A stretch of 34,405 bases of DNA from Candidatus Moraniibacteriota bacterium. Lineage in GTDB: Bacteria > Patescibacteriota > Minisyncoccia > JAHIHE01 > DAOVOJ01. The notes under the pieces are model-generated. The model had not been told where the DNA came from, did not search any database, and saw only the letters and a program-made list of their open reading frames with translations. Every line of letters begins with the position of its first letter. Positions within the stretch are counted from its first letter, which is position 1. Where the stretch lies: NCBI GenBank assembly GCA_030629775.1, contig DAOVOJ010000004.1:1-34405 (forward strand). The letters run 5' to 3'. A program made the position numbers and the translations under genes. Of the stretch, positions 2,092 through 32,370 are shown piece after piece.

Positions 2092-3879
2092 ATGCAAGTT
2101 GAAGATCAGCAATTAAAATCATTTTTATTGAATGCCGGTCTAGTTAGTTCTGAGAATTTAAAAAAGGCGTTGAAAGAATCCTCAAAAACAAACAAGAAGC
2201 TAGGGGAAGTTTTAATAGAAAAAAAATTAATTTCTCAGAACGAAATTGACAGGCTAAAAGCCTATATTTTAGGGATTCCTTTTATAGATCTGACAAAAAA
2301 TGACATTCCAAGAGAAATTATTGAAATAATTCCCGAACCAGTTGCCAGAAAATACCAAACGGTTGCTTTCCAGAAAAAAGGCAAAGAGTTAAAAATTGCC
2401 ATGGTTGATCCGGGCGATCTTCAAATTTTGGATTTTATCAGCAAAAAAACCGGCTTTAAAATTGTTCCCTGCTTGACTACCAAAGAAAGCGTTAAGTATG
2501 TTCTGAAACAATATCAAAAAAGTTTGGAGGCGGAATTCGGCGATATTATTCAGGATAAAGAAATAGAAGCAGAAATTTTAACGGAAAAAGGAAGCAAGGC
2601 GGCCGCTGTTTCAAAAGAAGAGGATTTAGATTTAAAAAAAGTAGCCGAGGATCTGCCTGTCATTAAGATCGTTGATACTTTATTAAAGCACGCCATTGTT
2701 GAAGGAGCAAGCGATGTTCATATTGAACCGGAAGAAAAAGATGTGGTAGTCAGATACAGAATTGACGGGATTCTCCATGACGCGATGACTTTGCCGTTAA
2801 AAGTTCTGCCGGGAATCGTAGCGAGGATAAAAATTCTGGCCAATCTAAAAATTGACGAGCATCGCCTGCCTCAGGACGGGCGGTTTAAGATTAAAACTCT
2901 GGATTATAAGGTAGCTTTTCGAGTATCGGTGCTGCCGGTTTTTGATGGTGAAAAAATTGTCATGCGGCTTTTAGACGAATCATCCAAAAGCCTGACTTTG
3001 GAGCAGATAGGATTTTCAGGAAGAGATTTGAAAGTTATTAAAAATTCCATTAAAAAACCAAACGGAATGATTTTAGTAACCGGTCCTACCGGCTCGGGAA
3101 AAACCACTACTCTTTATACCATTTTATTTATTTTAAATACTCCTGAAGTTAATGTTAGCACGCTTGAAGATCCGGTTGAATATAGAATGCCCCGAATAAA
3201 TCAAACTCAGATTAACCCTAAAATAGGCTTGACTTTCGCTTCGGGCCTGCGAACTCTTTTAAGACAGGACCCGGATGTTATTATGGTAGGAGAAATTAGA
3301 GACCATGAAACGGCCGAGATGGCAATTCATTCCGCCTTGACCGGCCACCTTGTTCTTTCCACTTTGCACACTAATAGCGCGGCTGGAACGCTTCCGCGGT
3401 TGTTGGAAATGGGAATTGAGCCTTTTTTACTGGCTTCAACCACTAATGTTATCATTGCCCAGCGGCTGGTTAGAAAAATTTGTCCTGATTGCAAGAAAAG
3501 TTATCAGCTTGACGCGGCGGCGTTAGAAAAATTATCCGAACAATACGATCTTGAAGCGATTATGAAAGTCTTGAAAAAAAGAAAAATTGTTAAAGATTCA
3601 GATAAAACATATAAAGAAGATTGGCTTGAACTGAAATTTTTTAAAGGAGAAGGATGCAGCCATTGCCACAATAGAGGATATAAAGGAAGAATCGGGATTT
3701 TTGAAGTGATGGAAATAACCGATAAAGTAAAAACACTGCTTAGCAAAAACGCTGAAACAGCATTGCTGGAAAAAAAGGCCATTGAAGAAGGAATGATAAC
3801 TATTATGCAGGACGGTTTCGCCAAGGCTGTCCAGGGAATTACGACTATTGAAGAGGTAATAAGAGTGACGAAAGAATAG
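2092..3879 (+). CDS. pilB: Type IV pilus assembly ATPase PilB (GspE family)
   Basis: N-terminal MshEN-like domain; Walker A GPTGSGKTTTLY; EDPVEYR; DPDVIMVGEIRDHETAEMAIHSALTGHLVLSTLHTNSA; CPDC/CSHC zinc site. Confidence 0.96.
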   Translation: MQVEDQQLKSFLLNAGLVSSENLKKALKESSKTNKKLGEVLIEKKLISQNEIDRLKAYILGIPFIDLTKNDIPREIIEIIPEPVARKYQTVAFQKKGKELKIAMVDPGDLQILDFISKKTGFKIVPCLTTKESVKYVLKQYQKSLEAEFGDIIQDKEIEAEILTEKGSKAAAVSKEEDLDLKKVAEDLPVIKIVDTLLKHAIVEGASDVHIEPEEKDVVVRYRIDGILHDAMTLPLKVLPGIVARIKILANLKIDEHRLPQDGRFKIKTLDYKVAFRVSVLPVFDGEKIVMRLLDESSKSLTLEQIGFSGRDLKVIKNSIKKPNGMILVTGPTGSGKTTTLYTILFILNTPEVNVSTLEDPVEYRMPRINQTQINPKIGLTFASGLRTLLRQDPDVIMVGEIRDHETAEMAIHSALTGHLVLSTLHTNSAAGTLPRLLEMGIEPFLLASTTNVIIAQRLVRKICPDCKKSYQLDAAALEKLSEQYDLEAIMKVLKKRKIVKDSDKTYKEDWLELKFFKGEGCSHCHNRGYKGRIGIFEVMEITDKVKTLLSKNAETALLEKKAIEEGMITIMQDGFAKAVQGITTIEEVIRVTKE

Positions 3880-4161: not shown

Positions 4162-5319
4162 ATGAATAACAATGATCTTTCAGAGCTTTTAGGCGGCGGG
4201 GAATATGAGACTTTTAAGCCTTCCAAAAAAGAAAAGGAGCCTAAAGGCTCTGTCAATATTAAGTTGCCGAAATTTTTAAGGAGAGTGAGTCTGGTTGAAA
4301 AGATGCTTTTCGCGCGCCATTTATCGGTAATGATGAAAGCGGGACTTTCCTTTTCCCGATCGCTAAAAACCATTTCTCAACAGACTAAAAATCAATATTT
4401 TGCCGAGGTTATCAGTCAGATTGAAAAAGACATTAAAAAAGGCAAGTCTCTGGCGGACAGTTTAGAAAAACATCCGAAAGTTTTCAACGAATTGTTTGTT
4501 AATATGGTTCGGGTGGGAGAAACGGGAGGAAATTTAGAAGAAATTCTGGAAAATCTGGCTGAACAGATGAAAAAAGACCATGAAATAATTTCTAAAGTTC
4601 GCGGAGCGATGGTTTATCCGGCGGTTATCGTTCTTGCTATGATCATCATCGGAGTCTTGATGATGATATTTGTCATTCCGACTCTGTTGGCAACTTTTCA
4701 AGATCTGGAAGTTGAACTTCCTTTTACGACTCAAATGATCATTTTTATAAGCGACGCTTTTCAAAATCATGGACTCGTTGTTTTGGGAGTTATGATTATT
4801 TTAACCTGGCTATTCATGGCAATTCATAAAACAGCTAAAGGAAAAAAGTGTTTTGATTTTTCATTATTACACTTGCCGATATTCGGAACTATAATTAAAA
4901 AGGTAAATTTGGCCAGATTTACCAGAACTTTAAGCTCGCTGATAGAAAGCGGAATTTCCATTAATAAAGCTCTCAATATTATTTCCAGGACGCTAGGCAA
5001 TACTTATTATAAAGAGTCTTTAAAAGAGGCAACCAAAGATATTCAAAAAGGAATAGACTTAAGCAAAATTATCAAACGATATGAAAATCTTTATCCCGCC
5101 TTGGTGGTTAATATGATTGAGGTAGGGGAAGAAACGGGAACACTGGAAGGGACATTAAAGCAAATCGCCGAGTTTTACGAGGAAGAGGTTGATCAAGTTA
5201 CCGCCAACCTTTCTTCAATTATTGAACCGATTCTAATGATGGTTATCGGCGCGGCGGTAGGATTTTTTGCCGTTTCTATGATTCAGCCAATGTACTCGCT
5301 AATGGAAGGAATAGCGTAA
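4162..5319 (+). CDS. pilC: Type IV pilus inner membrane platform protein PilC (GspF family)
   Basis: Two GspF repeats: FARHLSVMMKAGLSFSRSLKTI and FTRTLSSLIESGISINKALNII; MVRVGETGGNLEEIL and MIEVGEETGTLEGTL. Confidence 0.95.
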   Translation: MNNNDLSELLGGGEYETFKPSKKEKEPKGSVNIKLPKFLRRVSLVEKMLFARHLSVMMKAGLSFSRSLKTISQQTKNQYFAEVISQIEKDIKKGKSLADSLEKHPKVFNELFVNMVRVGETGGNLEEILENLAEQMKKDHEIISKVRGAMVYPAVIVLAMIIIGVLMMIFVIPTLLATFQDLEVELPFTTQMIIFISDAFQNHGLVVLGVMIILTWLFMAIHKTAKGKKCFDFSLLHLPIFGTIIKKVNLARFTRTLSSLIESGISINKALNIISRTLGNTYYKESLKEATKDIQKGIDLSKIIKRYENLYPALVVNMIEVGEETGTLEGTLKQIAEFYEEEVDQVTANLSSIIEPILMMVIGAAVGFFAVSMIQPMYSLMEGIA

Positions 5320-5434
5320 TTAGTCTCTTGATTTCCTTATAATTTCCCTCTGGAGAGGGGAGTAATCGGGAAGCTTCTAACAAGGCTATTTTCAAGTTCC
5401 ACATTCCAAGTTTTAAGTTTTAAGTTCTAAACCT

Positions 5435-7702
5435 ATGTTCCAAGTTCCAAGTTCCAAGTTCCAAGAAAAAGGTTTTAGCCTTATTGAAGGCATGGTAAGC
5501 GTGGCAATTTTTTTGATTGTTTCTTTGGCGTTATTTTCATTATTTAGCGTTGCTTTTAATTCCATTAGAAACAACAAAGCAAAAGTGACGGCGAACAGCA
5601 TCGCGCTGGAGGAATTGGAAGTTATTCGCGGAATGGAGTTTGACAATGTTGCCACTACCACCGGCTGGGTGCCGGCGGGACCAATTCTTAGCGAGAAAAA
5701 TATTAACAGAGGCAGTTTTAATTTCACCGTTAAAGTAGATATTACCTTTGTTGACGATCCTTTTGACGGAACAGAAACCAGCTCTCCCGCCGACACTTTC
5801 CCTTTTGATTATAAAAAAGCGCGGGCGCAAGTTATCTGGACAAATCCAATCACAAAAGGTCAGGAGACAGTGGCAATGAGCACTAATATTGTTCCGCCGG
5901 GATTGGAAGGAGGAACCGGTTTGTATATTACCGTTTTTGACGCTTCGGGACAGCCGATAAATGAAGCGAAAGTTGATATAACCAGCGTTGATGAAGGTTA
6001 TACTCTTGACGACGCTTTGACGGATCCAAACGGTAATTTGTGGGTGCCTAACTTAGAACCAAATAATGACTATCACATTATAGCAACCAAAGACGGTTAC
6101 AGCACTGCCCAGACATACGCGATAGACAACGATTCCGCTTCACCAGACTATAATCCTAATCCCACTAAACAGGACGCTATTGTTATTGACGGAGAAGTAA
6201 CCCGAGTCGGATTGGCAATTGATGTTTTGGGAAATCTGAACATTCAAACCGTCAATTATAACAATCCTCAAAATTGGAAAATTAATTCTGATCTTGGGGT
6301 AGACAGCCAAACGGAAGTTGCCGTTGATATTGACAGCGGAGATAATTTATTTCTTGTCTGGCTGGATGATCGAGACGGTCCAGAACGGTTTTACGCCCAA
6401 AAATATAAATATAATTCAGTCGCCGGTTTGTATGAAAAACAGTGGGACCCTGACGCTCAGATTACCGTTGCCAATAATAAGCGAACTCCGAGAATATCGG
6501 TTTTTGGAACAAGCTATTTTTACATTGTCGGAACCGATGATCGAAATGGGAATCAGGACATCTTTTTGGAAAAATATAATTCTTCCACCGGCGGTTCAGA
6601 ATGGAACGATGTTAAGATTAATGTGGACGCCAATAATGACGCTCAAATAAAACCTGACATCGCAATTGATTCAACTGAAAATATTTATACCGTCTGGATG
6701 GACGACCGGAACGGGAACTGGGATATTTATGCCCAGAAGTATGATCCCGACGGAAATAATTTATGGACGGCGGACTTAAAAATTAACAGTGACACCGGAA
6801 TTCATAATCAGAAAAATCCAAAAGCGGTAGTTGACGACGAAGACAATTTTTACATTGCTTGGGAAGATGAGATTAACGGCGACAAAGATATTTATATGGC
6901 TAAGTTTGACGGCGATGGCAGCATTCTTTTTGCCGGAAAAAAAATAAATACCGACACTTCGGGATTAGATCAATATGAACCAAATATCGTTTTTGACGGT
7001 TCAGATTATTTATATCTTTGTTGGAGCGATAAAAGAAATTCCCAGCCGGATATTTACGCCGGAAAATACGATAAAGCGGGAACGCGAATAATAAGCGACA
7101 ATTGGGCGGGAGGAGATGTAAAAATAAACGACGATTCTATGTCTGACGCTTGGAGAACCAAACCAGCAGTCGCTTATTTCAGCGACAGCGCTATTTATTT
7201 TTCATGGCAGGACAACAGAAACGGAAACCCCGATATTTATTCCGCGAAATTTGATTCCAGCGGCAATAAACTTTGGACCTACGACTTGATTATGAACGGC
7301 ACCGCTTCCAATGATCAGGGCGCTCCGGATGTGGTCACCGATTCAATGGGTTACGGAATTACCGTTTGGGAGGACTTCAGAAGCGGGGACGCTGATATTT
7401 ACGCGGCTAGATATAAAGACCTGGGATTTTTTACCAGAACAGGTATACCGATTACGATTACCGGCGCTAAATTAAAAGGAACTTATCCGCCCGACAGTTC
7501 GCCAATCTATAAATACAGCGAAAACTTTACAAGCGACGACGCTGGCAATATCAGCATTGGCGACGGAGCTACCGTGATAGAATGGGACAGTTACAGTTTT
7601 ACCGCCGGCGACGGCCACACGATTATTTCTACCGACCAACCGGAACCGTTATTCATAGCCCCCGGAACAACTGAAAATGTAGTGATCAATGTAGAACCGT
7701 AA
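5435..7702 (+). CDS. Large prepilin-like protein: type IV pilin N-terminus, carboxypeptidase-regulatory-like domain, and seven W-x-D-x-R-N-G-x-x-D-I-Y repeats
   Basis: Prepilin motif EKG^FSLIEGMVSVAIFLIVSLALFSLF; GQPINEAKVDITSVDEGYTLDDALTDPNGNLWVPNL; seven related motifs each ending DIYAxKYD-like. Confidence 0.88.
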   Translation: MFQVPSSKFQEKGFSLIEGMVSVAIFLIVSLALFSLFSVAFNSIRNNKAKVTANSIALEELEVIRGMEFDNVATTTGWVPAGPILSEKNINRGSFNFTVKVDITFVDDPFDGTETSSPADTFPFDYKKARAQVIWTNPITKGQETVAMSTNIVPPGLEGGTGLYITVFDASGQPINEAKVDITSVDEGYTLDDALTDPNGNLWVPNLEPNNDYHIIATKDGYSTAQTYAIDNDSASPDYNPNPTKQDAIVIDGEVTRVGLAIDVLGNLNIQTVNYNNPQNWKINSDLGVDSQTEVAVDIDSGDNLFLVWLDDRDGPERFYAQKYKYNSVAGLYEKQWDPDAQITVANNKRTPRISVFGTSYFYIVGTDDRNGNQDIFLEKYNSSTGGSEWNDVKINVDANNDAQIKPDIAIDSTENIYTVWMDDRNGNWDIYAQKYDPDGNNLWTADLKINSDTGIHNQKNPKAVVDDEDNFYIAWEDEINGDKDIYMAKFDGDGSILFAGKKINTDTSGLDQYEPNIVFDGSDYLYLCWSDKRNSQPDIYAGKYDKAGTRIISDNWAGGDVKINDDSMSDAWRTKPAVAYFSDSAIYFSWQDNRNGNPDIYSAKFDSSGNKLWTYDLIMNGTASNDQGAPDVVTDSMGYGITVWEDFRSGDADIYAARYKDLGFFTRTGIPITITGAKLKGTYPPDSSPIYKYSENFTSDDAGNISIGDGATVIEWDSYSFTAGDGHTIISTDQPEPLFIAPGTTENVVINVEP

Positions 7703-7742
7703 GCGTGTAACGCAAAACGTATAACGTGTAACGTAAGACACA
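7702..7742 (+). repeat. CGTGTAA/CGTATAA heptamer array, left of the S23-type ORF
   Basis: gcgtgtaa cgcaaaa cgtataa cgtgtaa cgtaaga. Confidence 0.8.
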
Positions 7743-7764
7743 CATAGTAAATTATATTAACACT

Positions 7765-8124
7765 ATGAAAGAGCAAAATCAATTTCATAACGAGTTAAAA
7801 AAATTAATGGATGAGTATGTTAATAAGGTTTATGATTATACTAAAAAGTTTCCAAGAGACGAATTGTTTGGAGTAATTTCGCAATTTAGGAGAGCAAGCT
7901 TATCAATAATACTCAATTATATTGAGGGATACGCAAGAGGAAAAAACAAAAGTAAAGTTTTAAAGAATTTTTTAGAAATCTCCTATGGCTCCTTGAAAGA
8001 AAGCAAGTATTTGGTCTATTTTTCTTACAAAAGAAAGTATTTAGATGAAAAAGAATACAGAGAATTAATAAAATTATCCGAAAGAATAGGCGCTATGCTT
8101 TGGGGAACCATAAAAAACATATAA
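7765..8124 (+). CDS. Four-helix-bundle protein, S23 / 23S rRNA intervening-sequence type
   Basis: KKLMDEYVNKVYDYTKKFPRDELFGVISQFRRASLSIILNYIEGYARGKNKSKVLKNFLEISYGSLKESKYLVYFS is typical of this family. Confidence 0.87.
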   Translation: MKEQNQFHNELKKLMDEYVNKVYDYTKKFPRDELFGVISQFRRASLSIILNYIEGYARGKNKSKVLKNFLEISYGSLKESKYLVYFSYKRKYLDEKEYRELIKLSERIGAMLWGTIKNI

Positions 8125-8149
8125 TGCATATTATATTTTTGTTACATAA

Positions 8150-8183
8150 GTATGTTACACGTTACACGACACACGTTACACGA
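8150..8183 (+). repeat. GTTACAC heptamer array running through the ATG of the minor pilin gene
   Basis: atgttacacgttacacgacacacgttacacg, inverted relative to the 7702-7742 array. Confidence 0.85.
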
Positions 8184-8772
8184 TAATGGTTTTACTCTTA
8201 TTGAAATGATAATCACTCTCGCTATCCTTGTTATTATGACGGGAGTGATCGTTACTTTTTTTATTTTTCTTTATCATGAACAGGCGGCTGATATTATCAG
8301 AATTAGACGGATAAATATTGCCAGTCACGCAATTAAAATAATGAGTTCTGAAATTAGAAAAATGAGTCGGGCGGAAGATGGCTCTTATACGATTGAATCG
8401 GCGAGCGGACAAACCTTGATATTTTATTCGGATGTTGATAACGACGGACTGACGGAAAAAATAGAATATTCCTTATCGGGAACAAACTTAGAGAGAAAAA
8501 TAATAGAACCGACCGGCGATCCTTATGAATATACTTCGGCTGAAACAGTAACCGTAACGGCGCGCGATATCAGAAACGGGACTGATCCGATATTTAAATA
8601 TTACGACGAAAGTTACACGGGCAGCGAAGCTTCGCTAGGTGATCCGGTAAATGTTACCGCAATAAAATTAATTGAAATCAGCCTGGACATTAATTCTGAT
8701 AATAATTATCTGACTCAGCCGTTTCACATTGAAACAAAAATCCATCCGAGAAATTTGAAGGAGTTTAATTGA
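8152..8772 (+). CDS. Prepilin-type N-terminal cleavage/methylation protein (PilW/GspJ-like minor pilin)
   Basis: NG^FTLIEMIITLAILVIMTGVIVTFFIFLYHEQ. Confidence 0.87.
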   Translation: MLHVTRHTLHDNGFTLIEMIITLAILVIMTGVIVTFFIFLYHEQAADIIRIRRINIASHAIKIMSSEIRKMSRAEDGSYTIESASGQTLIFYSDVDNDGLTEKIEYSLSGTNLERKIIEPTGDPYEYTSAETVTVTARDIRNGTDPIFKYYDESYTGSEASLGDPVNVTAIKLIEISLDINSDNNYLTQPFHIETKIHPRNLKEFN

Positions 8773-8886
8773 AGCGTATAACGTGTAACGTATATTATAA
8801 ATAATTTAAGTTACACGTTACACGTTTTGCGTTACACGTTACGTATTACACAGTATATAAAAATATGTTACACACTACACGCTACA
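8773..8886 (+). repeat. Inverted CGTGTAAC/GTTACAC arrays running through the ATG of the pilX-like gene
   Basis: gcgtataacgtgtaacgtat ... gttacacgttacacgttttgcgttacacgttacg ... atgttacacactacacgctacac. Confidence 0.85.
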
Positions 8887-10334
8887 CAAACCAAAAAGGT
8901 CTGATCACTCCTCTAATTCTCATCATCGCTTCAACAATGCTTATTTTTGCGACGGCGATCATAAATTGGTCAATCAGCGAACATAAGGATGCCAGCCGGA
9001 AAATCAGAACAACTCAGGCGCTTCAGATTGCCGAAGCGGGAGTGAATTATTACAAATGGCATCTAGAGCATGACGAAGGCGATTATCGGGACGGAAAAGA
9101 TTGGTGCTGTGACAACGATCCCGGCAAAAGTTTAATTGAATGCGGCGGAACTTGCGGCCCTTACGACCATCCATATTTAGATTATAACGATGTTAACATC
9201 GGCTACTTTTCTCTGCAAATAACTCCGCCGGAAGTTGGTTCTACAATCGTAACAGTGAAATCAATCGGCTATGCCTATGATGATGCTAATAATAAAAAAG
9301 AGATTACTTCGCGAGTCGGAAAAAGGTCACTGGCAGAATACAGTTTTTTAAGTAATACCCCGATCTGGATCGGCGCCGGTGAAGCAACTTCCGGACCGCT
9401 GCATTCCAATGGCGGGATTAGATTTGACGATGTCTGCAACACAGAAATAACCAGCGCGGTAGAAAATTACGACTGTGCTGACGTAGGACATGATTGCACC
9501 GGTATTAAACCTGGAATTTGGGGGTCAGGCGGACCAACAACTTACTGGCGTTTTCCTGTATCAGTAATTGATTACGATCTTTTTACAGTCAGTTTAGCGA
9601 ACATACAAACAAAAGCCGCCAAAGAAGATGGCACTTGTAATGGAGATAGCGGGGAGGGGAGAGGTATTTGTTTTGAAGACAGCGGAGCGGAAGGATATTT
9701 AGTGGAATTTTTATCGGACGCCACTGTTAATATCTATCAAGTTGACTCTTTAGAGTCGCCGTTAAAATATTGGAATTATCCCGGCTGGAAACAGGAAGCG
9801 GAAAAAATTGAAAATAAAACATTGCTGGGCAATTATAATATGCCTGACAACGGACTTATTTTTATTGAAGATGATATTTGGACAGAGGGAACAGTAAATG
9901 GTAAAGTGACAGTAGCAGCGGCTAAGTTTCCGGAAAATCAGAATAATTACGCTCAGATTAGAATAAATAGCAATATTCAATATTTAGCGCGCGACGGCAA
10001 TCATATTTTAGGACTGATCTCACAGGGAGATTTAACAGTGCCACGGCATGCTCCTGACAATCTTATTGTTGACGCCACTTTGCTTTCTCAAAAAGGACAT
10101 GTTTATTTTAGAAGATACGAAAACAGTTCTTTTGTGGTAAAGAATAATATAGAAATTTACGGCGGAATAATTACTAATTTATTTTGGACATGGAGTTATG
10201 TCACCAGTAGTGGTATAATAGTAAATGGATATACTACTACAAACACTATTTATAATAACAACCTTACTTTCAGTCCTCCTCCTTCTTTTCCAACCTCGGA
10301 AAATTTTGAAGTGTTGTCATGGAGTGAAGATTAA
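8865..10334 (+). CDS. PilX-like minor pilin / pilus assembly protein
   Basis: QKGLITPLILIIASTMLIFATAIINWSISEHKDASRKIRTTQALQIAEAGVNYYKWHLE; position within the pilus locus. Confidence 0.72.
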   Translation: MLHTTRYTNQKGLITPLILIIASTMLIFATAIINWSISEHKDASRKIRTTQALQIAEAGVNYYKWHLEHDEGDYRDGKDWCCDNDPGKSLIECGGTCGPYDHPYLDYNDVNIGYFSLQITPPEVGSTIVTVKSIGYAYDDANNKKEITSRVGKRSLAEYSFLSNTPIWIGAGEATSGPLHSNGGIRFDDVCNTEITSAVENYDCADVGHDCTGIKPGIWGSGGPTTYWRFPVSVIDYDLFTVSLANIQTKAAKEDGTCNGDSGEGRGICFEDSGAEGYLVEFLSDATVNIYQVDSLESPLKYWNYPGWKQEAEKIENKTLLGNYNMPDNGLIFIEDDIWTEGTVNGKVTVAAAKFPENQNNYAQIRINSNIQYLARDGNHILGLISQGDLTVPRHAPDNLIVDATLLSQKGHVYFRRYENSSFVVKNNIEIYGGIITNLFWTWSYVTSSGIIVNGYTTTNTIYNNNLTFSPPPSFPTSENFEVLSWSED

Positions 10335-10494: not shown

Positions 10495-11631
10495 ATGTCA
10501 TTATTTAACAATAATCTAGACGCTTTTGGTCTTGACTTAAGTGATCAAACAATTAAAGTTGCTCAACTCAAAAAAAGCGGAGGGAAATTAAAATTGGCGG
10601 GACATAACAGAATAGAAATTCCCGAAGGGATAGTGGAAAACGGTGAAATAAAAAAAAGCGACGAGCTGGCGAATATAATTCGAAAGACAATTTCCGAAAG
10701 CAAGCCCAAGCCGATTTCAACGAAATTTGTTATTTACTCAATCCCGGAAACCAAAGGTTTCATCCGAGTCGTTAGACTGCCAAAGTCAAAAAAAGAAGAA
10801 ATAGTTAAAGCGATTGCCGACGAAGCGGAACAATCTTTTCCCATTAATCTTAAGGAGTCGTATCTTGATTGGCAAATTCTGCCAAAAAATACAGGGAATG
10901 ATAAAATAGAAGTTCTAGTCGCCACCGCTCCTAAAAATTTAGTTGATTCTTATTCAAGAGTGTTAAAAAAAGCGGGGTTAAAGCCCATTGCGGCGGAAAT
11001 AGAATCAATTGCCATTATCAGAAGCCTCATTAACAGGCAGCAATCTTCCAGACCAGTATTGATTATTGACTTGGGGAAAGACAGAACAAGCTTTATTATT
11101 TTTAAAAAACCGGCAGTTCAATTCACGGCAAGCATCCCTGTTTGCGGCAATGAATTTAATAAAGCGGTCGCTAAAGAATTTTCCGTTGACATAGAAGAGG
11201 CAGAGAGAATAAAATTGGAGTTCGGACTCAGCCAACAGGGAAAATCCGGAAGGACATACAAGGCAATGTTGCCCGTTTTGGTTAACTTGGTAAAATACAT
11301 TGACAAGCTCCTTGATTATTATAAGGAACATTTCAGTTCTGAATTTCATTCCGAACTTCATTCTGATCAAATCAAATTAAAGCATGATTTAAAAATTTCC
11401 GAAAAAAATAGTTCTCCCATTTCAAAAGTTATCGTCTGCGGCGGAGAATCAAAAATACCCGGGATGAATTTTTATTTGTCTTTACAGATTAAAAAAGAAG
11501 TTGAAAGAGGAAATCCATGGATTAATATTATGAATTTTGACAAAGACATAATCCCGCCCATTTCCAGAGAAGATTCATTGGTATTTGTTACCGTTTTAGG
11601 ACTGGCAATGAGGGGAGTGGGAGAATACTAG
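10495..11631 (+). CDS. pilM: Type IV pilus assembly protein PilM (actin-like ATPase)
   Basis: FGLDLSDQTIKVAQLKKSGGKLKL; VIYSIPETKGFIRVVRLPKSKKEEI; ESIAIIRSLI; LIIDLGKDRTSF; VIVCGGESKIPGM. Confidence 0.93.
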   Translation: MSLFNNNLDAFGLDLSDQTIKVAQLKKSGGKLKLAGHNRIEIPEGIVENGEIKKSDELANIIRKTISESKPKPISTKFVIYSIPETKGFIRVVRLPKSKKEEIVKAIADEAEQSFPINLKESYLDWQILPKNTGNDKIEVLVATAPKNLVDSYSRVLKKAGLKPIAAEIESIAIIRSLINRQQSSRPVLIIDLGKDRTSFIIFKKPAVQFTASIPVCGNEFNKAVAKEFSVDIEEAERIKLEFGLSQQGKSGRTYKAMLPVLVNLVKYIDKLLDYYKEHFSSEFHSELHSDQIKLKHDLKISEKNSSPISKVIVCGGESKIPGMNFYLSLQIKKEVERGNPWINIMNFDKDIIPPISREDSLVFVTVLGLAMRGVGEY

Positions 11632-11873
11632 TAAATTTTTGTAAGTCGAATTTTGCGGAAATGAGAGTAGAATTTAAAATATTCTTTTTTAAACAGGTTG
11701 TTAATACTAAATTACAAATTATAAATATCAAATGAATTTTAAATTTCTAATGTCAAATTTTTTTATTTGGCATTTGGCATTGATTTGATATTTGGAATTT
11801 GTAATTATAAACATTATTTAACGCCACAAAAAATCTTAATACTTTATTGTCTTGTATTAAACAATGAAATTTT

Positions 11874-12455
11874 ATGATCAAACTTAATCTTCTTTCTTCT
11901 CAAGAAAAAGAAGAAATCAGATGGGAGAAAATAAATCGTATTTTGATGATTAACGGAACGGTGATTATCGCCGAACTGGTTATTTTTATTGTTCTTTTTT
12001 TGGCGATGGATTTTTATTTATCAAGAGAATTTTCTAAAATTGACAATTTGGTAGTACAAAAACAGCAAGAAGCGGAAGTAAAAGAAATTGGAGAACTTAA
12101 AATTAAAACTCAGTCTTTTAATGAGCGGCTTAATTTAGTTGATGAAATACAAAACCAACAGATTAGTTGGACAAAAATATTAGAGAAGCTAAGTTTAATA
12201 ACGCCGGAATCAGTTCAAATTATCAGTCTAGACATAAGTCCGAAAAATAACGAAACTGATGTCATTAATAGTGAGCAATATCTTTTTAATTTAGTTGGAC
12301 ACGCGAAAACAAGAGAAGATATGTTGGAATTTGAAAATAGATTAAAAGATTCCGATTATTTTTCCAACCTGGAATCAAATCGATCAAACTATTTAGAATC
12401 CTACAATGTCAACTTTCGTTATAGATTTAATCTTGCGGAAAAAATCTTAAATTGA
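11874..12455 (+). CDS. pilN: PilN-like inner membrane protein
   Basis: MIKLNLL start, single TM, coiled coil, PilN-like VDEIQNQQISWTKILEKLSLITPESVQIISLDI; directly downstream of pilM. Confidence 0.85.
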   Translation: MIKLNLLSSQEKEEIRWEKINRILMINGTVIIAELVIFIVLFLAMDFYLSREFSKIDNLVVQKQQEAEVKEIGELKIKTQSFNERLNLVDEIQNQQISWTKILEKLSLITPESVQIISLDISPKNNETDVINSEQYLFNLVGHAKTREDMLEFENRLKDSDYFSNLESNRSNYLESYNVNFRYRFNLAEKILN

Positions 12456-12470
12456 TTTTTATTAATAAAT

Positions 12471-13052
12471 ATGTTGACTTCCAAGAAAAAAACTTATTTC
12501 ACTTCTCTTATATTTTTAGCGGGAATGATTTTACTGCTTTTTGTGAGCGGAACTTTTTTAATTGATCAAATCAGAGCGGATAGCGAAAAAATTAAGAATT
12601 GGAAAATTGCGTTGAACCGCCTTGATGATCAAAAAAATCAAATTAATAGAATCAGAGAAAATTACTATGAAAAAGAGGATGATATGGAAGCAATAGAGGG
12701 GCTCTTTCTAGATCCTGAAAAAACGGTTGACTTCATTATTGAAATTGAAAATATTTCCGAGAAAGCAATGGTAGAATTGGAAAAAAAGGCTTTGGAACAA
12801 AACATCGCCGTTAAAAACGATAAAAACGAGCCATCAGTTTTTAATTATCAGCTGACCGCCAAAGGAAAATTCAATAATATTATGCATTTTCTAACATACC
12901 TTGAAAATATGAACTATAGTGTTATAATTAATAATCTGAAAATAAAAGCTCTTAGCGGAAGCGGAAAAAATTATTTGTATTCCAACGCTAACGACGAGAT
13001 TGAAATGTCAATAAATTTGGGAGTTTACATCCTTGAAAAAACCCGTAAATAA
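12471..13052 (+). CDS. pilO: PilO-like protein
   Basis: N-terminal TM then coiled coil and C-terminal YQLTAKGKFNNIMHFLTYLENMNYSVIINNLKI; position after pilN. Confidence 0.75.
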   Translation: MLTSKKKTYFTSLIFLAGMILLLFVSGTFLIDQIRADSEKIKNWKIALNRLDDQKNQINRIRENYYEKEDDMEAIEGLFLDPEKTVDFIIEIENISEKAMVELEKKALEQNIAVKNDKNEPSVFNYQLTAKGKFNNIMHFLTYLENMNYSVIINNLKIKALSGSGKNYLYSNANDEIEMSINLGVYILEKTRK

Positions 13053-19058: not shown

Positions 19059-19721
19059 ATGAAAACTAAGAATAAAATAAACTCGGTTTTTTTTATTGTT
19101 ATAGTTATTGTGATGGCGCTGACCAGTCAAGTTTTTGCCGGCTACTCTCTTCCTTCTCAGCCAGCTGGTTTGCCAAGTAGCTTGGAAAACGCGGCAATAA
19201 ATGCTACTAGTTGGTTATTGGGTTTTATAGTTTTATTGGCCGTTTTATTTATTGTTTGGGGAGGAATTAAATATGTCTTTTCAGCCGGCAATAAAGAAAG
19301 CGCGCAAGCCGGCAAAAAAACAATCACTTACGCCTTAATCGGACTTATTGTCGCCGGAGGTTCATACGCCATGATAGCGGTAATTGTTGATGATGTTACC
19401 AATATAAAAGAGCCTATTATTACAAGTACTGCTATCAGTCCCACTTCGGGTCCGCCAGGAACAACTTTTACCATTATCGCCACTATCACGGCATCAGCGG
19501 GAGTGGACATTGCGACAACAATAGTCCATATTCAAAATCCTGACGAAACAGACATTGACACGGTAACTCTTTATGATGACGGCGCCCATAGCGATGGCGC
19601 GGCAGGAGATAATGTTTACGGAAACACTTGGAATTCCGGAGCTGCTCCGGCAGGACCATATTTTGTTGATATTAGCGCTTGCGATTTGTTAGGAAATTGC
19701 AATGAAGAAGAAAATATTTAA
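19059..19721 (+). CDS. T4SS-type pilin (VirB2/TrbC-like) N-terminus fused to an Ig-like LYDDGxHSDxAAGDxxYGNTW module
   Basis: Signal peptide; two TM helices ATSWLLGFIVLLAVLFIVWGGIKYVFSAGNKESAQAGKKTITYALIGLIVAGGSYAMIAVIV; C-terminal VTLYDDGAHSDGAAGDNVYGNTW. Confidence 0.8.
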   Translation: MKTKNKINSVFFIVIVIVMALTSQVFAGYSLPSQPAGLPSSLENAAINATSWLLGFIVLLAVLFIVWGGIKYVFSAGNKESAQAGKKTITYALIGLIVAGGSYAMIAVIVDDVTNIKEPIITSTAISPTSGPPGTTFTIIATITASAGVDIATTIVHIQNPDETDIDTVTLYDDGAHSDGAAGDNVYGNTWNSGAAPAGPYFVDISACDLLGNCNEEENI

Positions 19722-19800
19722 TATTGATGGCAGTTTGAATATATACCAAAATAATAATAAGCATAACAACTATTAATAATTTAATTATTAATCTACAATA

Positions 19801-22212
19801 ATGCTTGTAATAAACAGAATTAAAAAATTAAAAACCAACTCTAAATTATTATTATTGATAAGCGTTATTTTAGTAAGCGTTTCAATTATTTCTTTTGTCC
19901 AGAGCGCTTCTTTTGAAATTGCCGATCAGCCGGAACCGACCGTGAGCAATACCAGTGTTACTCCCGGGACTGAAGACAGAGGCAGTAGTGTAGCCATTTC
20001 TTCTAAAGTAATTGATGTTTCGGGGGTTACTTATGTCAAAATACAGATAAAAAACGGTTTTGATACAATCGTGGCAAATATTGATCTTTACGACGACGGT
20101 ACTCATAGCGATAGCGCGGCGGGAGATAATATTTATGGTAACACATGGACAATTCCTATAAGTTTTTCAGCGGGAAATTATAAAATATTTATTACAGCTT
20201 CTGACACTCTTGGCAATGTTTATCAAACAGGAATTACCACTCCTTTCGGCGAGGCGGGACCGCGAAGCGAGGAAACTAATTTTAATGTAACTGTTCCTGT
20301 GATTACTTGTCCCGACGGTTCTTGCGATGTCGCCGGCGGAGAATGTTCAAGCTGTCCTATTGATTGTACTGTAGCCGATTGTTGCGGAACCGATATTTCT
20401 TGCAATGCTGTGGTAGGAGAAGATTGCTCAAGCTGCTCCACTGATTGCGGATGCGTTGCGCCGAATATTTGCTGTTCTGGAACTTGCCAACTACCAGCTT
20501 GCGTGAATAATAGCGACTGTAATGATGGCGATAGCTGCACAACAGATACTTGTAATAATTCTGGCACTTGTAGCGCCACCTGTTCTAATCCTTCAGTCGG
20601 TTGCATAGATGACGATGGTTGTTGTCCGGCAGGTTGTGATAGCACTAATGATAATAATTGTAGCGCAATCTGCGTAACAGATGGCTCATGCGATAGTAAT
20701 TGTCCAATAGGTTGTACCGTTGCGGAAGATCCTGATTGCGGTTGTCAAGATGATAACGGTTGTTGCGGAATAGGATGCGATAGTACTAACGATAATAATT
20801 GTTGTACTAATACCTGTGCTACAGATGCGGGCTGTAGCGCTATTGTTTTGTCTAACGCTAATATTACAACCGACGTTTGTTGCGGAGTTGGAGAATCGTG
20901 TTATGAATGTGACACTTCTTATTGCTGGAATGGCAGTAGTTGTATTGAAGATTACGATCCAATACCGAACCCTGTGGTAGGAAGCGCTCCGAATCCGATC
21001 GGAATATCAACTACGGTCGCGATAGACGATACCGTATATTTTGACGGGAGCAGTTACTCTTTGGATCCATATGGAACGATAGTTAAATATGAATGGGATT
21101 TTGAAAACGATGGAGCTTATGATTGGACTCATACGACTACTGGGATAACGACACATATATACACAACAGCCGGTTCATACATCGCTAAATTGCGAGTCAC
21201 AGATGATTGTGGGGTAACAGCCACAGACACCGTGAATATTACAGTCAATCCTCCCGGATTAGCGGCGTCAATTTTATCGCCGACAGATGGAGATGCTTTT
21301 AGTGAAGGAGACACTATTACTTTTTGGGGTTCGGCCACGGGAGGCATTTCTCCCTATGCTTTTTCTTGGACATCCAGTATAAATGGACCCATTGGAAGTT
21401 CTCAGGTATTTAACAAAAATGATTTAAGTGTTGGTGATCATACTATTACTTTAAAGGTGATTGACAATGCTAGCACGGAAAATACGATAAGTATAAATGT
21501 TTATATTCCGCCTAACAGTTTTACCTGGCAAAATGTAAGCGGTCAAAATTGGATGACAAATATTAAAGATCAGGGAGCTTGCGGGAGTTGTTGGGCGTTC
21601 GCAACAGTAGGGTCAGTAGAAGCAAAATATCAAATAGAACAAAATAATTCAACTTCGGGTATAAATCTCTCAGAACAATATATTGTTTCAGGATGTTGTT
21701 CCGCGGGAGATTGTAGCGGTGGAACAGTGCTCGCGTTTTCTTGTGTTCAAAATATAGGTATAGCAGAAAAAAATTGTTATAATTATCTTGGCAGCAATAG
21801 CAGTTGTCCAGTCGCATGTGATGATACAAGTCCGATAGATTTATGGAAAATTAATAGTTGGGATCCCATAATTCCACAACCACAAGGAGATAAGGCAGAT
21901 ATACAACGCGCTTTAATTCAACATGGACCTCTATTTGTAGGAATAGCGGTGGATCCATCGGGAGGATATTTTGGAGTCACTGGAACAGTGGATGAAAACA
22001 GCTGCGCCGTCTATACATGCGGAACAACACCAAATCATGCTGTAGTTTTAGTAGGCTATGACAATACAAATCAGTATTGGATTATTAAAAATTCTTGGGG
22101 CGTTATCTCTCTTGATATATGTGATAATGGTTATGCTAGTATGGATTACGGAACATGTCTTATTGGATCTAATATGTACGGTTTTTATTCAGAAGGAGTT
22201 TTGTCTCCGTAA
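19801..22212 (+). CDS. Secreted multidomain papain-like (C1) cysteine protease with LYDDG module, Cys-rich region, PKD-like domains and C-terminal catalytic domain
   Basis: N-terminal TM/signal; IDLYDDGTHSDSAAGDNIYGNTW; Cys-rich DDxGCCPxGCDSTNDNNC repeats; PKD VAIDDTVYFDGSSYSLDPYGTIVKYEWDFENDG; catalytic QGACGSCWAF, NHAVVLVGYD, WIIKNSWG. Confidence 0.92.
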   Translation: MLVINRIKKLKTNSKLLLLISVILVSVSIISFVQSASFEIADQPEPTVSNTSVTPGTEDRGSSVAISSKVIDVSGVTYVKIQIKNGFDTIVANIDLYDDGTHSDSAAGDNIYGNTWTIPISFSAGNYKIFITASDTLGNVYQTGITTPFGEAGPRSEETNFNVTVPVITCPDGSCDVAGGECSSCPIDCTVADCCGTDISCNAVVGEDCSSCSTDCGCVAPNICCSGTCQLPACVNNSDCNDGDSCTTDTCNNSGTCSATCSNPSVGCIDDDGCCPAGCDSTNDNNCSAICVTDGSCDSNCPIGCTVAEDPDCGCQDDNGCCGIGCDSTNDNNCCTNTCATDAGCSAIVLSNANITTDVCCGVGESCYECDTSYCWNGSSCIEDYDPIPNPVVGSAPNPIGISTTVAIDDTVYFDGSSYSLDPYGTIVKYEWDFENDGAYDWTHTTTGITTHIYTTAGSYIAKLRVTDDCGVTATDTVNITVNPPGLAASILSPTDGDAFSEGDTITFWGSATGGISPYAFSWTSSINGPIGSSQVFNKNDLSVGDHTITLKVIDNASTENTISINVYIPPNSFTWQNVSGQNWMTNIKDQGACGSCWAFATVGSVEAKYQIEQNNSTSGINLSEQYIVSGCCSAGDCSGGTVLAFSCVQNIGIAEKNCYNYLGSNSSCPVACDDTSPIDLWKINSWDPIIPQPQGDKADIQRALIQHGPLFVGIAVDPSGGYFGVTGTVDENSCAVYTCGTTPNHAVVLVGYDNTNQYWIIKNSWGVISLDICDNGYASMDYGTCLIGSNMYGFYSEGVLSP

Positions 22213-22232
22213 ATTATTAATAATATAATAAT

Positions 22233-23300
22233 ATGATGACAATATTAAAAGCCAGTAAAATGAATCAGAAAATAATAATGGGAGTTATAGCAACTTTTAT
22301 TATAATAGTATTTGTTTTTATAAACACCGCGTTCGCTCTAAAAAATCCTTCCGCGGTTTATTGCGAACAAATGGGCTATGAATGGACCGTGCAAGAAACG
22401 GAAGCGGGCCAAATAGGAATTTGTAAATTTTCTAAAATAGAGGATTGTCCGGCTTGGGAATTTTTAAAAGGTAAGTGTGGAGAAAAACACAGCTTTTGTA
22501 TTAAAGAAGGTTATGAATTAAAAAACATTAATGATCAAGAAAAATGTTCTTCAATACCATTTTCTTCAGAGTGTGCTGTTTGCGTTCTGGCTAATGGAGA
22601 AGAGATTGAAGTTACAAAATTAATGGAGTTAGATTTTAAGGAAGCTATTTGTGGTGATGGCAAATGTGTTTTAGGGGAAAATTATAAAACATGCCCCGAA
22701 GATTGTTCTTCGGGTCTTTTTGATGGGTATTGTGATGGTGAAATAGACGCTATCTGCGATCCGGATTGTACATTAGAATCTGATCTTGACTGCGCAAAAA
22801 AACCTGTTAAAGCGAATGTTATCATTTGCGCGGATAAAAATTGCTCTCAAAAAAAATCAGCCTTTACTAAAAATGAAACAGTTTATTTTAAAATAAATTC
22901 TGATATTTCTAATTTAAATATTTCATCCACTGTTAAAATTCCCAGCGGTGAAATTAAATATTTAACATTTGAAGATAATCTTGCTTCGTTTCAGTCTAAT
23001 GAAATTGGTGATTTTTCTCTTTGGATTAATCTTTCCAAGAGAAATTATCAGAATTTGAAAATAGAAGAAAATTTTGTTTATTTGGCTAAAATTCCATCGG
23101 CGTCCATTTGCAATGGCAATGGAAAATGCGAGGGTGAAGAAAATGAGCAAAATTGCCCTCAGGACTGCCTGCCAAAAACAGCTGGAGAAAACAATAACAA
23201 ACTTTACATTTTAATAGCGGGAATTTTGTTGGTTGTTGGAGTGGGAATAGCGTTTGTTTTAAAAAGAAAAAGAAAAAAAACCGAAAAGTATCCTTATTAA
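22233..23300 (+). CDS. Cell-surface protein with DUF333-like and Cys-rich motifs, C-terminal LPKTA-TM-basic tail
   Basis: NPSAVYCEQMGYEWTVQETEAGQIGICKFSKIEDCPAWEFLKGKCG (DUF333-like); GDGKCVLGENYKTCPEDC and NGNGKCEGEENEQNCPQDC; LPKTAGENNNKLYILIAGILLVVGVGIAFVLKRKRKK. Confidence 0.82.
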   Translation: MMTILKASKMNQKIIMGVIATFIIIVFVFINTAFALKNPSAVYCEQMGYEWTVQETEAGQIGICKFSKIEDCPAWEFLKGKCGEKHSFCIKEGYELKNINDQEKCSSIPFSSECAVCVLANGEEIEVTKLMELDFKEAICGDGKCVLGENYKTCPEDCSSGLFDGYCDGEIDAICDPDCTLESDLDCAKKPVKANVIICADKNCSQKKSAFTKNETVYFKINSDISNLNISSTVKIPSGEIKYLTFEDNLASFQSNEIGDFSLWINLSKRNYQNLKIEENFVYLAKIPSASICNGNGKCEGEENEQNCPQDCLPKTAGENNNKLYILIAGILLVVGVGIAFVLKRKRKKTEKYPY

Positions 23301-27110: not shown

Positions 27111-27890
27111 ATGTTCCAAGTTCCAAGTTTTATGTTTATCGGCGGTCTCCAAAAATTCACTTTAATAGACTACCCTGGCAAAATTGCGGCGGTTGTTTTT
27201 TTAGCGGGTTGTAATTTCAGATGCCCATTTTGTCATAACGCGGAACTTGTGATTTATGATAAAAATAACTATCAAAATAAATTATCAGAAAAAGAAGTTC
27301 TAAAGTTTTTGAGTTCCAGAAAAGGGGATCTAGACGGAATTTGCATTACAGGAGGAGAACCGACCCTACAACCTGGTTTAACAAAATTTATAAAGAAAAT
27401 CCGAAAAATGGGATTTCTAATCAAGATTGACACCAACGGCTCCTACCCTTTGGTAATAAAAAATTTACTAGAAAATAAGCTTGTTGACTATTGGGCGATG
27501 GATATTAAAACCGCGCCGGAGAAATATAAAATGGTGATTGGCGGTAAAAAAAATATAGAAAATATAGGAAACGAAAATCTTCGTTCTCTACAAAAAAAAT
27601 TAGAAAAAAGTATTGAGCTTATTGTTTTAAGTAAAGTTGAATATGAATGGCGAACAACAGTAGCGCCAACAGTAGTTGATAAAAATGATATTATAAAAAT
27701 GATTGAATGGTTAAAGAAAATTCATCCCGACGCTCTAAAAAATGCCAGCCGCTATACTCTTCAACAGTTTAGACCGGATAAAACTTTAGATCCCGCTTTT
27801 CAGAAAATAAAACCTTATTCCGATGATGAGTTAAAAAAAATGGCGGACTTATTAAAACCACATTGTAAAAAAGTAGTTATTTTGGGTTAA
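27111..27890 (+). CDS. nrdG: Anaerobic ribonucleotide reductase activating protein (radical SAM); real start may be ATG 27132
   Basis: IGGLQKFTLIDYPGKIAAVVFLAGCNFRCPFCHNAELV (CxxxCxxC); GICITGGEPTLQPGLTKFI; DTNGSYP; adjacent to nrdD. Confidence 0.92.
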   Translation: MFQVPSFMFIGGLQKFTLIDYPGKIAAVVFLAGCNFRCPFCHNAELVIYDKNNYQNKLSEKEVLKFLSSRKGDLDGICITGGEPTLQPGLTKFIKKIRKMGFLIKIDTNGSYPLVIKNLLENKLVDYWAMDIKTAPEKYKMVIGGKKNIENIGNENLRSLQKKLEKSIELIVLSKVEYEWRTTVAPTVVDKNDIIKMIEWLKKIHPDALKNASRYTLQQFRPDKTLDPAFQKIKPYSDDELKKMADLLKPHCKKVVILG

Positions 27891-29114: not shown

Positions 29115-29252
29115 GATTTTAGATTATGTTATTAATGTCGATAACAATTGTAATTTAACTTATTTTTTTACTTTTGACAAGAGAAAATGAATCACGAATC
29201 ACGAATTAAGAATTTCTTATTCTTAATTCGTGATTTGTAATTCTTGATTCTT

Positions 29253-30963: not shown

Positions 30964-32370
30964 ATGCCTCTCAAACTTTATAACACTCTCACCAAGAAAA
31001 AAGAAAAATTTATCCCCATTAATAAAAATAAAGTCGGGATGTATTCTTGCGGACCGACGGTTTATAACCACGCCCACATTGGCAATCTGCGTTCTTATTT
31101 GGCGGCGGACCTTTTACAGAAGACGCTAAAATATAACGGCTACAAAATAAACTGGGTGATGAATTTTACGGACATTGATGATAAAACCATTAAAGGCGTA
31201 ACGGAAAATTATACTAAAGCGGCTGATAATAATGACCTGAAAAAATACACTCAGAAATATATTAACATTTTTAAAAGCGATCTAGCAAAATTAAATATTG
31301 AAAAGCCTGACTTTGTCAGAGCGACTGACAAGATTGAAGAGATAAAAAAAATGATCAAGAAAATTGTTGATTTAGGGTTTGGTTACGAAAAAGACGGCTC
31401 AATTTATTTTGACATTAAAAAATATCAAGAGAAATATCGGGACTATGGCAAATTAGTAGGAGAGAATTTTATGAAAGGAATGAAATTTGGCGCAACTGTC
31501 AACGCCGACGAATATGAAAAAGAAAATATTGGCGATTTTGCATTGTGGCGAGAATGGAAAGAAAACGACAGCAACATTTTTTGGGAGAATGAAAATTTTC
31601 CGAAAGGCAAGCCGGGCTGGCACATTGAATGCTCTGCTATCGGCGCCGATAAGCTAGGTGACCAATTTGACATCCATAGCGGGGGAGTGGATTTAATTTT
31701 TCCCCACCACTCCAACGAAATCGCCCAAAGCCAGACGGCGAGCGGCAAAGTTCCATTCGTAAAATACTGGTTTCACTCAGAACATCTTTTAGTAAACGAA
31801 GAAAAGATGGCAAAGTCAAAAGGGAATTTCTTTACTCTTAAAGATATAGAAGAGAAAAATTTTAACCCGCTCGCTTTGCGATATTTATGCTTAGGCGCCC
31901 ATTACCATTCCACATTAAATTTTACATGGCAGAGTTTAGAGGCAAGCCAGAATGCGTTGGAGAGGCTGTGTGAGTTTATGAAATCGGACGAATCACGAAT
32001 CACGAATCACGAATTAGAAATAGAGGTGGAGAGTAAATATGAAAGTTTATTTTTAGAAGCGATCAATAATGATCTGGACACGCCGCGCGCGTTGGCGATT
32101 GTTTGGGAAATGATTAAGTCAAAAGAGATGAGTTATCAAAACAAGAAAGCGCTGCTTTTAAAATTTGATCGTATTTTAGGATTGGGCTTGAGTCAAGTAA
32201 AAAAAGAGAAATTAATAATTCCCGATGAAATTCAAATATTAATCAAAGAAAGAGAAGAGGCGAGGGAAAATAAAAATTGGAAAAGAGCGGATGAATTGAG
32301 AGAGGTTATTAAGAAGAAGGGGTTTTTGGTTGAGGATGTGGAGAGCGAAACGGATATTAGAAAATTATAG
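30964..32370 (+). CDS. cysS: Cysteinyl-tRNA synthetase
   Basis: GMYSCGPTVYNHAHIGNLRSYLAADLL; NFTDIDDKTI; GWHIECSAIGADKLGDQFDIHSGGVDLIFPHHSNEIAQS; KMAKSKGNFFTLKDI. Confidence 0.97.
   Translation: MPLKLYNTLTKKKEKFIPINKNKVGMYSCGPTVYNHAHIGNLRSYLAADLLQKTLKYNGYKINWVMNFTDIDDKTIKGVTENYTKAADNNDLKKYTQKYINIFKSDLAKLNIEKPDFVRATDKIEEIKKMIKKIVDLGFGYEKDGSIYFDIKKYQEKYRDYGKLVGENFMKGMKFGATVNADEYEKENIGDFALWREWKENDSNIFWENENFPKGKPGWHIECSAIGADKLGDQFDIHSGGVDLIFPHHSNEIAQSQTASGKVPFVKYWFHSEHLLVNEEKMAKSKGNFFTLKDIEEKNFNPLALRYLCLGAHYHSTLNFTWQSLEASQNALERLCEFMKSDESRITNHELEIEVESKYESLFLEAINNDLDTPRALAIVWEMIKSKEMSYQNKKALLLKFDRILGLGLSQVKKEKLIIPDEIQILIKEREEARENKNWKRADELREVIKKKGFLVEDVESETDIRKL
31990..32017 (+). repeat. Heptamer array inside cysS: GAATCAC x3 + GAATTAG
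   Basis: Direct 7-nt tandem units, translated as ESRITNHE. Confidence 0.88.

Follow-up and report, generated by a model that had tools for sequence, protein, structure and literature searches.

What would a beta-propeller do on a pilus subunit, and where in the pilus machinery would such a subunit belong? The question is raised by a 34,405-nucleotide stretch of DNA from a Candidatus Moraniibacteriota bacterium (hereafter, the window), in which one gene encodes a pilin-like N-terminus and, on the same polypeptide, a series of related motifs (Table 1). Little is known of how Patescibacteria recognise their hosts. The first-pass annotation of the window, made from the sequence alone, spoke of a reduced, probably episymbiotic lineage; the small Paceibacteria genome fits the reduction.

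Table 1. Features of the pilus locus and of the propeller-bearing prepilin (window coordinates).
Feature	Position	Strand	Evidence
PilB-type extension ATPase (MshEN + T2SSE)	2092..3879	+	Pfam
PilC-type platform protein (T2SSF)	4162..5319	+	Pfam
Propeller-bearing prepilin gene, PilV position	5435..7702	+	755 aa ORF; N_methyl, CarboxypepD_reg; three orthologues
Leader peptide, 13 aa	5435..5473	+	predicted cleavage G13^F14, Glu at +5; sequence, Pfam N_methyl
Pilin alpha-1 helix, residues 16-65	5480..5629	+	AlphaFold2; block pLDDT about 86-92 from residue 21
Pilin beta-sheet, residues 87-152	5693..5890	+	AlphaFold2; profile alignment with relatives
CpD1, first Ig-like/carboxypeptidase-regulatory domain, residues 162-275	5918..6259	+	PF13620; block pLDDT 90-97
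Predicted seven-bladed propeller, residues 280-660, between CpD1 and Ig2	6272..7414	+	repeats, AlphaFold2, Foldseek, TIGR04275
Propeller motif starts	6359, 6530, 6695, 6860, 7022, 7205, 7367	+	repeat analysis
Ig2, second Ig-like domain, residues 665-754	7427..7696	+	block pLDDT about 84-96 from residue 671
Second prepilin, PilW position, Glu+5 present	8152..8772	+	Pfam N_methyl
PilX-position pilin-like protein, N-terminus KG^LITPL without Glu+5	8865..10334	+	sequence
PilM, PilN, PilO	10495..13052	+	Pfam: PilM E 1e-39; PilN and PilO weak, below cut-off

The gene encodes a type IV prepilin

The protein begins with a canonical class III leader, MFQVPSSKFQEKG^FSLIEG, with Gly at -1, Phe at +1 and Glu at +5, and residues 11-34 match Pfam N_methyl above its cut-off (25.7 versus 21.2 bits). 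Together with the 50-residue helix (16-65) modelled by AlphaFold2, this upholds the earlier reading of EKG^FSLIEG as a prepilin N-terminus, that is, a class III signal peptide followed by a hydrophobic helix, as is characteristic of type IV prepilins. The first-pass annotation had also proposed a check for a PilD cleavage site, and the canonical leader, with Glu at +5, provides a predicted one at G13^F14. The carboxypeptidase-regulatory-like domain that it described is likewise matched by Pfam CarboxypepD_reg (PF13620, E 6e-10, residues 166-228). An extra folded domain is fused to the pilin module, the architecture of a modular pilin, and Ig2 is also kept in relatives that have no propeller. 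Three orthologues are present in the window's own order, with identities of 61, 48 and 42%; one of them loses its N-terminus at a contig end.

A heptanucleotide tandem repeat, (GTTCCAA)x4.1, lies at 5437-5465, within codons 1-11 of the prepilin gene, and other heptanucleotide repeats occur in the window at 5408-5426, 8810-8826, 27113-27129, 29189-29206 and 31988-32014. Counting arrays with 17 or more matched positions, we found 22 exact arrays of period 7 in 1.52 Mb of loci and 0-4 for each of the other periods from 4 to 12. The array in the leader is a possible phase-variation switch, since gaining or losing one copy would put the gene out of frame. The heptamer arrays may also be neutral, as they are dispersed and one even lies within cysS. 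A literature search on heptamer repeats found no relevant paper.

Seven repeats with a predicted propeller fold

The repeat WxDxRxGxxDIY occurs exactly seven times in the protein, at residues 309, 366, 421, 476, 530, 591 and 645, with a spacing of 54-61 residues. All seven related motifs quoted at first pass were recovered, and a leave-one-out profile, in which six repeats were used to score the seventh, gave 18-34 bits, compared with about 5 at the highest-scoring other site of the protein; the occurrence of exactly seven repeats is therefore not due to chance. All three orthologues from the same order can be read as seven blades in register. By the blade profile, seven are detected in one of these and six in the two others (the first or second blade is degenerate), and seven are detected in five orthologues outside the order.

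An initial AlphaFold2 run on four sequences gave a good model of the propeller and a poor one of the scaffold; in a second run, 38 propeller-less relatives were added to anchor the scaffold. The full-length model from the second run has a mean pLDDT of 87 and a pTM of 0.65, a low value that is expected if the domains are flexibly joined. Its propeller portion is based on the four sequences, and some of the 38 added alignment rows are spurious at residues 421-435. Seven sets of strands are modelled across residues 280-660. Propellers are among the best Foldseek matches in the PDB, with TM-scores by target length of 0.54-0.71 for those named here: the CV39L lectin (0.71 with the first model, 0.67 with the second), GH145 BT3686 (0.64-0.67) and PL25 ulvan lyase (0.54-0.58), all of which we take to be seven-bladed propellers. 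The structure prediction and Foldseek search that had been suggested as a check thus returned a propeller fold plus a modelled pilin helix. Seven repeats of about 55 amino acids and a propeller fold, the marks of a seven-bladed propeller, were found by the repeat analysis, AlphaFold2 and Foldseek. The earlier suggestion of a closed seven-bladed propeller stands for the modelled blades and the propeller matches, and closure itself is suggested by the full-length matches to closed propellers.

By profile comparison, the repeats are related to TIGR04275, an NCBIfam beta-propeller repeat, without being formal members (61.7 bits, E 3.9e-17, below the cut-off of 85). Searching the PDB by sequence with the propeller alone gave chance matches only. 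RCC1 had no Pfam match in the window protein at E 1, and PF05567, the PilY1/PilC propeller, had none in the window protein or in the scanned orthologues. PF05567 was also without a match across the bacterium's own genome, but so were the controls. No relevant paper was found in a literature search on TIGR04275 and the CV39L lectin.

The prepilin gene lies in a pil operon

The PilB-type ATPase and PilC are encoded upstream of the propeller pilin, and W, X, PilM, PilN and PilO downstream. The gene is accordingly found in the company of PilB, PilC, PilM, PilN and PilO, as befits a prepilin, and ahead of PilW and PilX, as befits a PilV-type one. The V-W-X gene order, with Glu+5 in W and not in X, recalls the GspIJK/PilVWX tip complex, in which the K/PilX tip subunit lacks Glu+5; the window locus differs from that complex in the large, variable inserts carried at the V position. 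The PilV model TIGR02523 had no match to the window protein at E 0.01, and it matched one orthologue below its cut-off (30.4 bits, E 4.5e-7, cut-off 52.2).

Around the gene for the conserved scaffold of this pilin, a pilX homologue was detected at 133 of 138 loci and a pilW homologue at 132, with PilC at 95 and an extension ATPase at 78; loci broken by contig ends are scored as misses in these counts. The setting in a pilus locus, implied at first pass, is confirmed by the Pfam assignments around the gene and by this synteny. No prepilin peptidase was found in the bacterium's own 94% complete assembly; since 15 of 18 genomes in the order carry one, the miss is likely an assembly gap. The genome has four matches to T2SSE-family ATPases, one of them in a 370-aa frame, the size of PilT, about 800 bases from another T2SSE match.

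Between the V and W pilin genes, at 7765-8124, lies a 23S rRNA-intervening-sequence/bAvd-like gene (PF05635, E 1.6e-25), and proteins similar to its product are encoded near two other loci. Elsewhere in the window, a candidate surface cluster occupies 19059-23300, between ftsA-like and ftsZ-like genes. Its genes encode a T4SS_pilin (PF18895) whose C-terminal tail is longer, a protease of the papain family that has PKD and Cys-rich segments, and a protein matching an LPXTG-like anchor.

A conserved scaffold with an insertion slot

The scaffold profile, built from residues 1-277 of the window protein plus relatives, was detected in 116 of 384 sampled genomes of the class (about 30%, E 1e-25) and in 76 of 380 sampled genomes of the phylum (about 20%, E 1e-30). 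We compared the region between CpD1 and Ig2 in 139 reading frames. This slot is empty in 98, where CpD1 passes almost directly into Ig2; it holds a domain of about 150 amino acids, jelly-roll-like by eye, in 27 frames and a propeller of 383-423 residues in nine. One frame has 13 LVIVD repeats inside Ig2, and four are without a recognisable Ig2. Six frames, among them four propeller carriers, have an insert in the pilin domain, and 47 have one in a C-terminal CpD domain.

The propeller is therefore an insertion between two conserved Ig-like domains and not a simple C-terminal head. The first-pass annotation had placed it after the carboxypeptidase-regulatory-like domain, which agrees with the order of motifs, but it is not terminal, since Ig2 follows. 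Its suggestion to look for homologues in the same position was answered in part: the scaffold pilin is widespread at pil loci, with the propeller in a small minority. The widely conserved feature is the slot, not the propeller.

The nine carriers of a slot propeller comprise four in the window's order, one in the order of genome G422 and four in that of genome G565. A single inherited group of carriers was rejected (single-clade constraint, p 0.0018, quick tree from scaffold columns only), and this tree fits a single gain with several losses and repeated gain or transfer alike. Pilin propellers are more similar to one another than to sampled non-pilin propellers: the window protein scores 137-177 bits against pilin propellers outside its order, compared with at most 112 bits against sampled non-pilin propellers. 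Occupation of the first slot and of the C-terminal insertion place appear to exclude each other (1/36 versus 46/99, Fisher p 3e-7); this pattern is confounded by ancestry and we claim no functional exclusion.

Some scaffold pilins are considerably larger. The one with LVIVD repeats within Ig2 (L037 in G036, 4809-8819) has 1337 residues, the repeats amounting perhaps to two propellers' worth, and another gene for the scaffold follows about 2 kb downstream. Four others (L138-L141, in G565, G732, G733 and G735), of 942-1191 residues, combine a slot propeller with a pilin-domain insert of 185-410 residues, which in G565 is LamG/concanavalin-like by eye.

Comparison with known pilins and propellers

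Modular pilins have been described before, and so has a pilin fused to a propeller in Patescibacteria (PMC12206443, PMC8179133). In Nanosynbacter lyticus TM7x (Saccharibacteria), the minor pilin PilX2 carries a seven-bladed RCC1 propeller; when PilX2 was deleted, the share of bound host cells fell from about 10.6% to 4.6%, and the protein is needed for normal host binding (PMC12206443). This published fusion corrects the earlier reading, which drew its comparison with the PilC/PilY1 adhesins, whose propellers lie on proteins separate from the pilin helix. In both cases a type IV minor pilin of Patescibacteria, encoded at a minor-pilin locus, has a seven-bladed propeller on the same polypeptide. 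However, PilX2 is an X subunit with a C-terminal propeller of RCC1 repeats and without a predicted PilD signal (PMC12206443), whereas the window protein is a V subunit with a canonical PilD signal and an interdomain propeller of WxDxRxGxxDIY repeats.

Modular pilins are a recognised class with 264 architectures (PMC8179133). Among them, PilB and PilC of Streptococcus sanguinis, which have been modelled at the tip, carry modules that bind host proteins and glycans (PMC8179133, PMC9934059). The window protein shares with them the joining of a pilin module to a bulky, in our case putative, ligand-binding module, but the vWA and lectin modules of S. sanguinis are C-terminal and the propeller lies between two Ig-like domains. 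The PilC/PilY1 tip adhesin of diderm type IVa pili is similar in that a propeller is presented by a minor-pilin complex; PilY1, in contrast, is a separate non-pilin protein whose propeller is of the PF05567 type. The TIGR04275 beta_prop_Msarc proteins have the same type of repeat by profile, but the name of that family refers to a beta-propeller repeat only and does not place it in a pilin.

New here are the V-position subunit, the TIGR04275-like repeats and the interdomain slot, together with evidence that the modules held in the CpD1-Ig2 slot, and in others of this scaffold, differ from lineage to lineage. None of the papers searched describes such a slotted propeller pilin.

A probable adhesin with an exchangeable head

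Taken together, the protein is probably a minor pilin at the PilV position of a type IV pilus, and its propeller probably serves as an exchangeable ligand-binding head. We infer adhesion, a ligand, host attachment and a location at the tip. PilD would cut the leader, the mature protein would join the W and X minor pilins in a pilus-priming complex, and its size would place it at or near the tip. There the propeller would bind a ligand, probably a glycan or protein on the surface of another cell or of a particle, and, once the ligand was gripped, pilus extension and retraction would pull the cell to its target. Given that the two ends of a closed ring are adjacent, the propeller could occupy an interdomain linker without disturbing the scaffold. 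The precedents of TM7x PilX2 and S. sanguinis PilB/PilC, added to the evidence presented here, make an adhesin with an exchangeable head the best reading.

It is unlikely that the propeller is mainly structural, acting without an outside ligand as a spacer or assembly platform that contacts PilW/PilX or a co-secreted protein. Beta-propellers often serve as protein-protein platforms, and the gene nearly always adjoins W and X. The propeller of PilY1 has moreover been proposed as the contact to a tip-located minor pilin complex (PMC8179133). Most relatives, however, have the same scaffold, the same W/X neighbours and the same operon without a propeller, so pilus assembly does not in general depend on the propeller.

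Quite improbable is an enzyme, similar to a glycoside hydrolase or polysaccharide lyase, that trims surface glycans from the pilus. The Foldseek neighbours do include GH145, GH43, GH93, sialidases and PL25, and Pfam GH43 matches three of the four members from the window's order (best E 4.7e-10), but in the one member inspected in detail this match is partial and below the curated cut-off. The nine propellers have a mean identity of 32%, with six or seven blades detected in each, and the residues conserved in eight or more of them fall only at blade-recurrent, repeat-symmetric positions. All near-invariant residues (W, D, R, Q, P, G, Y and similar) are at repeat positions, and no asymmetric His or Glu set of the catalytic type is conserved across the nine. 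Conservation confined to repeat-symmetric residues argues more for a binding scaffold whose surface varies than for an enzyme.

A type II secretion-like pseudopilin or competence (ComG-type) pilin that does not reside on a long surface pilus is very improbable: N_methyl pilins are common to all type 4 filaments and the N-terminus has weak ComGE-like matches, but PilM, PilN, PilO and the V-W-X minor pilin set are type IVa features, and an orthologue matches the PilV model, though below cut-off.

Implications for host recognition

The scaffold that carries the propeller invites a wider reading, which we hold tentatively and with some doubt: the PilV scaffold, widespread in Patescibacteria, may be a general display dock for unrelated modules, which lineages acquire, lose or swap, the insert setting the target of the pilus. 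Such a dock would have at least four insertion places (the pilin domain, the CpD1-Ig2 slot, the interior of Ig2 and the interior of the C-terminal CpD domain), with two kinds of propeller among its modules.

In the one case tested in the Patescibacteria, a propeller-bearing minor pilin contributed to host recognition. The same principle is now placed in another subunit and in other lineages, together with the insertion site of the head. With the scaffold profile, a catalogue of heads can be drawn up for the whole phylum and set against partner organisms and, if the scaffold is indeed a display dock, the type of insert could predict partner choice from genomes.
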